From: Anseongella ginsenosidimutans | GTDB lineage: Bacteria; Bacteroidota; Bacteroidia; Sphingobacteriales; Sphingobacteriaceae | DNA length: 64,000 bases | Direction of reading: 5' to 3' | NCBI RefSeq assembly: GCF_008033235.1 | Contig: NZ_CP042432.1 | Span: 3,596,001-3,660,000, forward strand | Part shown: in pieces, positions 22,941-27,141 of the stretch | Layout: every line of letters begins with the position of its first letter | How positions within the stretch are numbered: position 1 is the first letter of the stretch | Program-made: the position numbers and the translations under genes | Notes under the pieces: generated by a model | Database searches by the model: none | What the model saw: only the letters and a program-made list of their open reading frames with translations | Told to the model about the DNA's origin: nothing

Positions 22941-23792
22941 ATGAACTATCGTATGCTCTTTTTGATGATCGCGGGGATCACCGCGTATTTTAACGCTGCC
23001 GCCCAGGAGAGGGAAATCATTCACTTATGGAAGGACGTTCCCGGCGAAACCGGTCCCAAAAAACCTCACGAGCTTTCGGATGATACCAGCCGGGACGTAA
23101 CCAGGATCTCGCGGGTGAGCGACCCCGTACTCCATGTTTACCGGCCTGCGCCCGGAAAGAATCGCGGGGCCGGCATCATTGTCTGCCCCGGCGGAGGTTA
23201 CTCCATCCTCGCTATTGATCTGGAAGGCCATGAAGTGGCCGCCTGGCTGGCCGATCTGGGCTTTACCGCTTTTGTACTGGAATACCGGGTTCCCAAAAAA
23301 CCGCTGAACGCCCTGCAGGATTTCCAACGGGCGGTGCGCGTGGTCAGAAGCCGTGCGGAGGAGTGGGGAATACAGTCCGGCAAGGTAGGCGCCATCGGCT
23401 TTTCAGCAGGCGGAGACCTGGTAGCGCGGGGCAGCTCCTTTCACGAAAAAAAACTTTACCCGCCGCAGGACAAGGCCGATTCCTTAACAGCAAAACCTTC
23501 CTTTTCCCTGCTGATCTACCCGGCTTATCTTGATAAGGGAGAAAACCGCAGCATTACCCCGGACCTGGAGATCGGCAGCGATTACCCGCCGGTATTTCTT
23601 TTCGCCACAGCTGACGATTCCCATGGAAACAGCACGCTGGTTATGGCCGGAGCGCTCCGCGACGCGAAAGTGCCGGCAGAGCAGCACCTCTATACCGAAG
23701 GCGGGCACGGCTACGGCCTCCGCCCAGGAAACCCTGCCGCTGACGCCTGGCCGGGGCTGGCCGCGAAATGGCTATCGCAGCTTGGGCTTTGA
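22941..23792 (+). CDS. Secreted alpha/beta hydrolase (acetyl-esterase-like)
   Basis: 283 residues with a signal peptide (to YFNAAAQ). Oxyanion region IIVCPGGGYSILAIDLEGHE, nucleophile serine in GAIGFSAGGDLVARG, acid residue in ATADDSHGNS and histidine in EGGHGYGL. This layout matches the BD-FAE/acetylxylan-esterase-like group used on decorated plant glycans. The sequence immediately after the nucleophile elbow (GGDLVARGSSF) keeps the pattern. Third gene of the run, 15 bases after the oxidoreductase. The first structured repeat lies 33 bases after its stop and may also act as its terminator. Confidence 0.88.
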   Translation: MNYRMLFLMIAGITAYFNAAAQEREIIHLWKDVPGETGPKKPHELSDDTSRDVTRISRVSDPVLHVYRPAPGKNRGAGIIVCPGGGYSILAIDLEGHEVAAWLADLGFTAFVLEYRVPKKPLNALQDFQRAVRVVRSRAEEWGIQSGKVGAIGFSAGGDLVARGSSFHEKKLYPPQDKADSLTAKPSFSLLIYPAYLDKGENRSITPDLEIGSDYPPVFLFATADDSHGNSTLVMAGALRDAKVPAEQHLYTEGGHGYGLRPGNPAADAWPGLAAKWLSQLGL

Positions 23793-23824: not shown

Positions 23825-23904
23825 GGGGCTGGCCTGCCCGGACTCGCTCAGGCGATTCTTGCGGCGCAAGAATCAACATCGCTCGCTGCGGGCCGGCCAG
23901 CCCC
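23825..23904. repeat. Structured palindromic element, copy 1
   Basis: An 80-base element with an outer stem of two 16-base arms (GGGGCTGGCCTGCCCG, 23825-23840; CGGGCCGGCCAGCCCC, 23889-23904; one mismatch), a two-stranded internal loop (GACTCGCTCAGGC, 23841-23853; AACATCGCTCGCTG, 23875-23888), and an inner 8-bp hairpin GATTCTTG/CAAGAATC with a CGGCG loop. The outer stem can extend past a bulge through TGCGCC. Copy 2 at 24090 has the same loop strands in opposite orientation but different stem sequences. Confidence 0.85.
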
Positions 23905-24052
23905 CGGGCGCAATCCCTCCGCACATCGTGCGATCTCCGGGTTTATGTTTATAATGCATAAGCACACGATTAACCCTTATAAGTAGTTCACATAATATAA
24001 GTCGAAAATTGGCTTTATTACCGCTGAATAGCCGTTAATGTACCTGATTTTG

Positions 24053-24086
24053 TTGTACGCAGGCCAGCGCGCAGGCCAGCGTACAA
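24053..24086. repeat. Imperfect palindrome next to the structured element
   Basis: Ends TTGTACGC and GCGTACAA pair perfectly; the inside contains CAGGCCAGCG twice, so the 17-base arms pair with two mismatches each. It lies 3 bases before copy 2 of the structured element. It may be part of the same unit or a decayed relative, but it lacks the conserved loop strands. Confidence 0.6.
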
Positions 24087-24089
24087 GGC

Positions 24090-24167
24090 TTTGATTGCCC
24101 GCAGCGAGCGATGTCAATTCGTGCGGCTCCGCCGCACAAATTGCCTGAGCGAGTCCGGGCAATCAAA
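24090..24167. repeat. Structured palindromic element, copy 2 (inverted)
   Basis: Perfect 12-base outer arms TTTGATTGCCCG (24090-24101) and CGGGCAATCAAA (24156-24167), internal-loop strands CAGCGAGCGATGTC (24102-24115) and GCCTGAGCGAGTC (24143-24155), and an inner 12-bp stem AATTCGTGCGGC/GCCGCACAAATT with a TCC loop and one mismatch. Read on the minus strand, the loop strands equal those of copy 1 in 13/13 and 13/14 positions, while the stems differ in sequence and keep pairing. Confidence 0.85.
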
Positions 24168-24196: not shown

Positions 24197-24248
24197 CTAT
24201 TCGCTACCCCGGCGCTATTCACCACCTGACGCTATTCGCCACCCGATG
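24197..24248. repeat. Three degenerate 17-18 bp tandem units across a stop codon
   Basis: CTATTCGCTACCCC, CTATTCACCACC and CTATTCGCCACCC start at 24197, 24215 and 24232. On the minus strand each unit reads like GGTGGCGAATAG, and the innermost contains the last codons and stop (TAG) of the copper-dehydrogenase gene. The coding end was therefore duplicated downstream. Confidence 0.7.
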
Positions 24249-27141
24249 CAATTTGCTCAATAACAGCAATAGCCGCAGCCTGATCTTCCCGCAAGTCATC
24301 CTGCGCCTGCAGTTCCTGCCTGGTCTTGTTTAAAATGGTCATGGCGGCGCTCTTGTCCTCGGTTGCACCCAGGCGTTGTACGGTGTAAGTCAGCAAATTG
24401 GGCAGGGCAGCTTCCTTTGCAATATCAATAGCCCGCTGGGCATCCAGTTCTACCATCGGTTCCAGGGCGTACCAGACGATAAGGGGAAGATTATGGTCTT
24501 CGAAGTCCTCTTCATGTGAACAAAGGTTCTCCAGGATCGTCCAGCATTGGGCCGGATCCATTCGCTGAACAGCAGACGCGATGTACAAACGCACCAGGGC
24601 CGACTCATCATTCGCCGCCATTTGTTCCAAACGGGCCACCGCACCGGCAGGCACTTTCTTATCTTCCGCCATCAGCTGTATGGCCCAGGAACGCACATAT
24701 TCGTCCTTATTATCCAGCAATTCCAGGAACTGCTGCTCGCTGATGCCCCCTGTTACATGGAGGGCCCACAACGCCCGCAGCTTCCGGGTGACGTCCGGGT
24801 TCTCGTTCAGTATCTTCCACAGGGCCTGGTGTACCTCGCCGCCGGCTTTTCTTTCCTGCAGCAGGCGACGGGCGTGCCGCACGTACCATTCATTTTCATG
24901 AAGCTGCAATTCCACCAGCTCCAGGTCCGTCTTTTTGCTGAGGTCCACTTTCACCCATTTATCTTCTTTGTGAGAGATTTTATAAATGCGGCCCAGCGTC
25001 TTGTTATGTACGTCGGGATTAGGGTTATGGCATTGATTCTGGTCATACCAGTCATGCACGAATATTGACCCGCTGGGAGCGATCTGGAAATTCAGCCAGA
25101 GGGACCAGGAATCGTTCGTGAGAATAAAGTCTTCACCGTGAGAAGCCGTGTACCCGGAGCCTGAACGGCTGATCTTATCCTGGTTTACGCGGTGGCCGTG
25201 AATATTGTTCATGAAAATGGAATTGCGATCCAGGCCCCAGTGTTCGTTACCCAGGTAAAACATGGCGCCGGCATGGGCATGGCCCCCGCCTGCTGCGGCG
25301 GAACGGAAATTCCCCGCATGCGGACCGCTGTCCCCTAACCAATGCACATGATCAGCAATGGTTTCGATATCATCGTACGTATACGGATTAAAGTGCTTTC
25401 CGCCCTGACGGAAGTAACGCCCTCCCTGGATCATATGAAATAAATGAGGGATCACACAAACCGTCACAAAGGTATGCCCGTAATCATTGAAATCGATACC
25501 CCATGGATTGCTGGTGCCGTGCGCGAATACTTCAAACTCATGCCGGGTAGGATGATAACGCCATACCCCCGCATTCAGGCCAACCCGTTCCTCATCCGGC
25601 GTGCCGGGCTTTCCAACCCTCGAATGGGTAAACACCCCGTGCGTGCCGTACAGCCAGCCGTCCGGGCCCCATTTAAAGGTATTCATTGTCTCGTGTGTAT
25701 CTTCGTAACCGAAACCGTCCAGCAGTATCTGCGGCTCACCGGCCGGTGCATCACCGGTTTCGTCAATGGGAATGTACATGAAATAGGGAGCGGCTCCTAC
25801 CCAAACGCCGCCAAAGCCTACCTCAATGCCGCTTACCAGGTTCAATCCGTCAATAAACAGCTTCCTTGAATCCAGGGAACCATTGCCATCGGTATCTTCA
25901 AAGATCAGGATCTGGTCTCCTCCCTTTCCTTCTTCGGCCCGCACGGGGTAGGTATGGGATTCCACGACCCACAAACGGCCCCGGTCATCCATTGCCATCG
26001 CGATAGGCTTGGTTATTTCCGGCTCGGAAGCAGCCAGGGAAATTGAAAATCCTTCCGGCAGCGTCATCGCTTTTACCGCTTCCTCCCCGGAAAGACCGGC
26101 ATGTTCCACTACGTCTCTTTCCGGCAGGATAATAATATCAGCAGGCGATAACTCCCGGACGTATTCCGGCCGCTCTTTATGAAAACGGAAATCATCAAAT
26201 GAAATATGAGACCATTTATTATCCCCTATATAATGTATCTCCGGCACTTTTCCGGTTTCTTCATCGACCAGGCGGATAAACATTTCCTTTCCCATATAAG
26301 GTTCCAGGTTCACCACCACCGGCCGGAAAACCCCCTGCGTTTTACCCGCAATATGCCCTACATTGACAGGGCCGGAAATCTCGAAAAAAGCCGTATCCTG
26401 CCCGGCAAGCACCAGTTCCACCCGCGTTCCTTCCAGCGCGCCTCCGGTCACTTTAAAAGACGCCCAGGGAGCGGCTATTTCAAACGTTTCCGAAGTAAGG
26501 ACGCCCGTAGCCACGTAATTATTTGTACCGCCGCTGGTTACGTAATAATCCCCGCTCTGTTTCAGCTCCATACTATCAGGATACCAGGGAGCCGGATCAA
26601 AGGCGACCGATTTAGCGCTGAAAGCGCTTCCTTCCGCCTTCCAGTCTGCTAAGCTTGCCCGTTCAAATCCGAGGTTCAGGGGCTTTCCGTTCTTTCGCGG
26701 AGAATAACCCACGTCGCTGATAGTCTTTTCAAAACTTTCTACGATCTCAAACCGCCCGTTCATCATCTGCCGGTGCCCCGGAATACTGCAGAAATAAACG
26801 TCGTCTTCCAGCGCTTCGAATTCGATCACCGCGGTATCTCCTTCCTCCACTACCGGTTCGCTGCGGAGGCCCAGTTTTTCCATGACAATATCATGCGCCA
26901 TCAGTTCTCCGTTGATAAGAGTGATCTTTACCCGCTCGCCTTTCTTTGCGCGCAGCACCGGGTTCCGCACGCCGTCAATATCGCCTCCGACGCCGGTGTA
27001 GCCGGTCATTTTCGAATTAAGAACGTACTCCCGGTCAATCGTGTCTTTTTCAGCCTTTTCCTTCTTCATTACACAGCCGCTCTGAATGCAGGCCGAAAAT
27101 AAAAGAGCAATAAAGGTTATCCTTTTCCTGGTCAGGTTCAT
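24232..27141 (-). CDS. Cupredoxin-fused PVC-type dehydrogenase lipoprotein with HEAT-like C-terminus
   Basis: 969 residues; likely lipoprotein (FSACIQSGC). Residues about 38-135 form an azurin/plastocyanin-like domain with all type-1 copper ligands: His83 in MAHDIVM, and Cys118, His123, Met127 in CSIPGHRQMM. Residues about 150-330 look like a carbohydrate-binding-like beta-sandwich. Residues about 355-720 are the PVC-type membrane-bound dehydrogenase propeller (GFSISLAASEPEITKPIAMA, MDDRGRLWVVESHTYP, GPDGWLYGTHGVFTHS, NPWGIDFNDYGH). Residues about 750-969 are helical HEAT-like repeats. No CxxCH haem motif is present, although cytochrome c domains are common in relatives. It is transcribed in the same direction as the ABC transporter genes, 187 bases downstream. 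Confidence 0.88.
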   Translation of the reverse strand: MNLTRKRITFIALLFSACIQSGCVMKKEKAEKDTIDREYVLNSKMTGYTGVGGDIDGVRNPVLRAKKGERVKITLINGELMAHDIVMEKLGLRSEPVVEEGDTAVIEFEALEDDVYFCSIPGHRQMMNGRFEIVESFEKTISDVGYSPRKNGKPLNLGFERASLADWKAEGSAFSAKSVAFDPAPWYPDSMELKQSGDYYVTSGGTNNYVATGVLTSETFEIAAPWASFKVTGGALEGTRVELVLAGQDTAFFEISGPVNVGHIAGKTQGVFRPVVVNLEPYMGKEMFIRLVDEETGKVPEIHYIGDNKWSHISFDDFRFHKERPEYVRELSPADIIILPERDVVEHAGLSGEEAVKAMTLPEGFSISLAASEPEITKPIAMAMDDRGRLWVVESHTYPVRAEEGKGGDQILIFEDTDGNGSLDSRKLFIDGLNLVSGIEVGFGGVWVGAAPYFMYIPIDETGDAPAGEPQILLDGFGYEDTHETMNTFKWGPDGWLYGTHGVFTHSRVGKPGTPDEERVGLNAGVWRYHPTRHEFEVFAHGTSNPWGIDFNDYGHTFVTVCVIPHLFHMIQGGRYFRQGGKHFNPYTYDDIETIADHVHWLGDSGPHAGNFRSAAAGGGHAHAGAMFYLGNEHWGLDRNSIFMNNIHGHRVNQDKISRSGSGYTASHGEDFILTNDSWSLWLNFQIAPSGSIFVHDWYDQNQCHNPNPDVHNKTLGRIYKISHKEDKWVKVDLSKKTDLELVELQLHENEWYVRHARRLLQERKAGGEVHQALWKILNENPDVTRKLRALWALHVTGGISEQQFLELLDNKDEYVRSWAIQLMAEDKKVPAGAVARLEQMAANDESALVRLYIASAVQRMDPAQCWTILENLCSHEEDFEDHNLPLIVWYALEPMVELDAQRAIDIAKEAALPNLLTYTVQRLGATEDKSAAMTILNKTRQELQAQDDLREDQAAAIAVIEQIASGGE

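Follow-up and report, generated by a model that had tools for sequence, protein, structure and literature searches.

REP, BIME and REPIN sequences, usually explained by RAYT (TnpAREP) transposases, are short dispersed intergenic palindromes that are genus-specific and often occur as inverted pairs, and the REP/RAYT literature describes the behaviour closest to that of the hairpins reported here (PMC3733652, PMC8266576, PMC6006769, PMC3116915). The form in which REP sequences are likely to be recognized is a folded single strand with an irregular stem (PMC8266576, PMC3116915). TnpAREP subclass 2.6 (RAYT group 5), which belongs to Bacteroidetes, the same phylum as the family here, is associated with atypical secondary structures and with copies elsewhere in the genome (PMC6006769). 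Another likeness is to attC sites, also folded single strands that are read through unpaired bases, and a further one to AGCGA-quadruplex DNA, known from oligonucleotides and regulatory-region sequences, in which AGCGA tracts pair with one another via G-A and G-C pairs (PMC5442326).

The window, a 64,000-nucleotide stretch of the Anseongella ginsenosidimutans genome (NZ_CP042432.1, positions 3,596,001 to 3,660,000), holds two hairpins that belong to a set of about 45 copies scattered through this genome. The family acts like REP yet lacks two features that define REP, the tag and a Y1/RAYT transposase. Unlike REP/BIME elements, it carries neither a GTAG nor a CGTC tag, its loops are conserved while its stems vary almost freely, and no RAYT is found in its own genome or in the congener; its units measure ~90-125 bp, compared with 20-40 bp for REP/BIME. 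The reading that we favor, and consider likely, is a lineage-specific family of interspersed, REP/BIME-like palindromic DNA elements that are probably mobile. The family has probably expanded recently.

Two hairpins between convergent genes

Copy 1 lies on the plus strand. Its outer stem consists of a left arm (23825..23840) and a right arm (23889..23904) that face each other over 16 positions with one T.C mismatch, and it encloses internal-loop strand 1, GACTCGCTCAGGC (23841..23853), an inner hairpin, GATTCTTGCGGCGCAAGAATC (23854..23874), and internal-loop strand 2, AACATCGCTCGCTG (23875..23888); both loop strands have the core TCGCTC. A spacer with no strand assignment (23905..24089), single-copy in the genome, separates it from copy 2, which lies on the minus strand and begins with its right arm (24090..24101), forming 12 bp with the left arm (24156..24167). 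Between these arms are loop strand 2, GACATCGCTCGCTG (24102..24115), identical to that of copy 1 at 13/14 positions, the inner hairpin AATTTGTGCGGCGGAGCCGCACGAATT (24116..24142), and loop strand 1, again GACTCGCTCAGGC (24143..24155), identical at 13/13. The original prediction had claimed both hairpins and exactly these loop-strand identities, and both parts agree with the sequence: the hairpins are present on opposite strands and fold far better than shuffled versions, with DNA fold z-scores of -4.9 (copy 1) and -4.2 (copy 2) that 0/200 shuffles equal. In addition, TCGCTCGCTG occurs 2 times in the window, against 0.08 expected.

The flanking genes, the only two neighbors of the family that were run against Pfam, encode an alpha/beta hydrolase (22941..23792, plus strand) and a DUF7133-domain protein (24232..27141, minus strand). 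They are convergent, with the stop codon of the first towards copy 1 and that of the second towards copy 2, and each gene ends at one hairpin. We also observe that GGACTCGCTCAGG and TCGCTCGCT are mirror repeats, reading the same backwards on one strand; they occur at 23840-23852 of the window and in most copies.

A family with fixed loops and free stems

The 4.32 Mb genome contains 12 exact copies of GACTCGCTCAGGC, whose mirror symmetry spoils a reversed-pattern control for this strand taken singly. A gapped pattern of both loop strands matches exactly at 13 places in the genome, against 0 for its reversed control, and a first covariance model, built on an alignment of 25 copies, finds 46 matches, two of them in the window; some of these are weak (bits <40), and one is the reverse-strand echo of a strong copy. 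The pair of loop strands is thus not a chance combination, given the 13 gapped-pattern matches against none in the control and the 46 model matches. A second covariance model, made from 46 copies (45 from the same genome and one from the congener), recovers much the same set. The original prediction had named two outcomes that would speak against it, namely no more copies, or copies with fixed stems and variable loops; further copies exist, and in them the loops are kept and the stems vary.

Every unit is one long hairpin made up of an outer stem, an internal loop and an inner hairpin. Loop strand 1 reads TCGCTCAGGC and loop strand 2 reads AA..TCGCTC, with TCGCTC present on both. TCGCT is 96-100% conserved on each loop strand and some adjacent positions are 64-80% conserved, values that are somewhat overstated, as the copies were found by these loops. 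The outer stem has a median of 15 bp and its arms come in 39 distinct forms across 44 copies, and the inner hairpin ranges from 20 to 54 nt. The stems of the two copies in the window had been described at the outset as unrelated, and nearly all stems of the family do differ; a few types nonetheless recur in varied combinations, for example TTTGATTGCCCG as an outer stem and GATTCTTGCG and GATTCTCCG as inner stems.

Across the 46 aligned copies, in an alignment fitted to the model, two-sided changes are found in 23/23 stem pairs, and covariation reaches 0.69, compared with 0.20 in shuffled and <=0.11 in slid controls. An independent MAFFT alignment yields two-sided changes in 19/23 pairs and covariation of 0.55 versus 0.17. 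Copies differ by over 30 bp in how far apart their TCGCT motifs stand, but the inner stem is always paired, and folding would therefore bring the motifs together. On the complement strand, the internal loop places GAGCGA opposite GAGCGA, a sequence arrangement that might allow G-C pairs with G.A pairs on either side. The likeness to AGCGA-quadruplex DNA lies in the AGCGA held by the complement of each loop strand.

Empty sites in the congener

Mobility was assessed in one same-genus genome, over stretches totalling 1.16 Mb that include 13 regions with both flanking genes adjacent. The element is absent from 12 of these 13 orthologous regions, where the gaps span 11-357 bp in the congener versus 198-1094 bp here. 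Two points weigh against mobility: neither a transposition event nor a target duplication nor a mover came to light, and the element-bearing gaps have also gained unexplained unique DNA, as in one gap of 518 bp versus 11 bp. With 12/13 regions lacking the element in the congener, this lineage has probably acquired most of its copies; with one congener compared, gain is the simplest reading and loss in the congener the alternative. The element is likewise absent from genomes representing other genera of the family. The mobility suggested originally is thus supported by the empty sites.

The 13th region, porX-like/tsaE-like, has the element in both genomes, and the congener holds a three-copy tandem array there. 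In A. ginsenosidimutans, this congener array is matched by a degenerate element on the minus strand (L109:3100-3210), immediately upstream of the tsaE-like gene. A TATTTTTG stretch directly precedes the tsaE-like gene, so this old copy may overlap the promoter of that gene.

Beyond the genus, the models give only marginal matches in 395 genomes of the class and within the family, and those in other families (G330, G124, G379) are weak. One of them, in a genome from another family of the class, is a lone hairpin (G330:C2:473204-473282, locus L123) in which each loop strand carries CTCGCT and the arms contain T/A runs, at a marginal score (E 7e-4 per genome). In contigs of distant genomes, exact-pattern matches number 3, in Planctomycetota, Trinickia and Solimonas, which is about chance level by our own estimate, and viral contigs contain no exact-pattern match.

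If the elements are mobile, as we favor, single-stranded DNA would fold into the hairpin, and a protein would read the internal loop, whose TCGCT/TCGCT strands (AGCGA/AGCGA on the complement) have two-fold symmetry, with copying or insertion to follow. The stems would matter solely by being paired. Copies would last mainly at gene 3' ends, presumably because insertion there does little harm.

Placement at gene ends and tests for a strand-specific RNA

All 46 copies analysed are intergenic. Gene context was taken from fetched stretches with a simple codon-based gene caller, two of the copies counted came from searching these fetched loci, and the context counts are not mutually independent, as one region can contain several paired or tandem copies. 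The left arm is closer to the gene than the right arm in 41/46 copies (p=4e-8), and in 22/26 regions with a single copy. Inverted pairs all face each other (->...<-, 8/8), and since the spacers of different pairs are mutually unrelated, the hairpin itself is the unit. A composite transposon with shared spacers is ruled out by spacers that are both unrelated and single-copy. A replication-strand bias was also rejected: orientation seems skewed at 0.56-2.75 Mb, and the skew vanishes with replichore borders placed by GC skew at ~1.2 and 3.2 Mb (corrected split ~16 vs 11, hand-counted). Several hairpin-bearing gaps (L115, L118, L119, L104) contain low-complexity tandem repeats of the AACCTTGAAACCTTGAACC kind.

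Some of the placement also agrees with an RNA element, either a 3'-UTR hairpin that ends or stabilizes the preceding transcript or a barrier that acts in both directions where genes converge. A same-strand gene precedes 35/46 copies, usually ~10-100 nt away, and of 43 copies, 34 lie in sense orientation relative to the closest facing stop codon versus 9 in antisense (p=1.7e-4), a bias that counts against mobility insofar as a transcript-level role would also produce it. Convergent gaps are enriched, at 16/35 compared with 17/106 background gaps >=150 bp (p=9e-4), and canonical terminators are few in the window (3/44 genes). We nonetheless regard an RNA element as unlikely. In tandem gene contexts, sense and antisense copies are nearly balanced (10 versus 8), the congener lacks the element at most sites, and none of the listed copies has a T run after its right arm, so the pattern of an intrinsic terminator is missing. 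At one locus (L095), a conserved intrinsic terminator already stands between the gene and the element. The hairpins match no Rfam family, the only hit being a chance scaRNA match outside them (E=0.24).

Strand-specific selection on RNA should leave more G-U than A-C mismatches on the selected strand, and no such excess is seen among 42 copies (20 G-T versus 23 A-C). Folding is moreover less favorable for the element strand than for its complement, by 2.5 kcal/mol on average (p=0.004). The mismatch balance and the folding together point away from a strand-specific RNA. DNA folding or repair of the arms by template switching would fit these observations, and a structure used both ways between convergent genes would give the same balance. 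The RNA role put forward in the original prediction is accordingly disfavored, both by the lack of a G-U excess and by the copy beyond a conserved terminator.

Template switching and the covarying stems

A different account, which we find distinctly improbable, treats the hairpins as neutral palindromes in which template-switch repair copies one arm onto the other and leaves the loops merely untouched, with no selection. Two studies describe such repair (PMC7202029, PMC8794818), and template switching can create and maintain paired stems (PMC8794818). Consistent with this, multi-base stem types change in both arms together, mismatched intermediates are few, and the tandem growth by core-plus-right-arm units seen in both A. 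ginsenosidimutans and the congener shows replication errors at the hairpins. Neutral repair gives no account of the dispersal to 35 regions, however, nor of the strong conservation of the loop strands or the rules of orientation. Such repair can operate alongside mobility, and part of the stem covariation could come from it. The initial claim of selection on a fold, drawn from covariation, holds for the conserved loops and the covarying stems but is too strong on selection, because paired changes also arise when palindrome arms are repaired by template switching (PMC8794818). More generally, covarying stems in a dispersed repeat are no proof of a functional RNA.

The search for a mover

For the mobile DNA elements that we favor, the mover may have been lost, may act from elsewhere or may belong to a non-Y1 family. 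The Pfam Y1_Tnp profile (PF01797) has no match at E<=1 in the A. ginsenosidimutans genome or in the congener, and scores above the cut-off in 34/60 genomes searched; the Y1/RAYT mover that had been envisaged is thus not found in the present genome. A mover gene flanked by copies was rejected as well, as the direct neighbors resemble typical host genes (dnaN-, metK-, miaA-, recN-, porX- and tsaE-like, judged by eye from their translations). Hairpins that appear to be expanding in a genus where no RAYT is detected suggest either that the mover was recently lost or that another enzyme class spreads folded DNA. The fixed loops and free stems give a sharp prediction of what such an enzyme would read. 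More tentatively, and with rather more doubt than belief on our part, the specificity of the hairpin may lie wholly in the symmetric loop, with the stems free and a dedicated non-Y1/HUH enzyme spreading the copies; pairs might then associate via their AGCGA strands.

It is less probable still that the hairpins form the REP family of a Y1 (RAYT/TnpAREP) transposase since lost from the genus, perhaps one related to subclass 2.6. Their intergenic location, inverted pairs and genus specificity are REP/BIME-type behavior, subclass 2.6 in Bacteroidetes is itself known for atypical structures (PMC6006769), and hairpins near a weak Y1 match in a family member (L214) hold AAGCGAGCGCTC. Against this stand the absence of a Y1_Tnp match from both genomes and the lack of a family tag: the 10 nt 5' of 44 stems contain 0 GTAG, 1 GTGG and 2 CGTC. 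The Y1-carrying relatives are also without this hairpin, as the second model (R2) and R1 both find no copies in them. Subclass 2.6 would be the natural home of the family if a Y1 gene were found; it differs in that no Y1 protein is present here, the genome having no Y1 gene that a hairpin could flank, and in that the hairpins near weak Y1 matches in relatives are of other types.

An attC-like integron site, or another folded single-strand recombination site, shares with the family a folded strand with conserved unpaired features but is very improbable, as no R'/R'' boxes (RYYYAAC / GTTRRRY) are seen by eye in the consensus or the listed copies, and the hairpins are single and dispersed beside core genes rather than arranged in gene-cassette arrays.

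Other hairpins occur in related genomes. In a member of the same family (G005, L214:772-1237), several lie near the weak Y1 (RAYT-like) match; they have GGATTTGCAATCC-type arms around CAAGCGAGCGCTC, and CAAGCGAGCGCTC has AGCGAGCG in common with the complement of loop strand 2 of the family here. In the congener (G001), a tandem array with a ~120 bp unit (L260:6200-6620) represents a second hairpin family, which has the same general architecture with other loop strands (CTTCAG / CTTTAG) and suggests that the genus holds several hairpin families.
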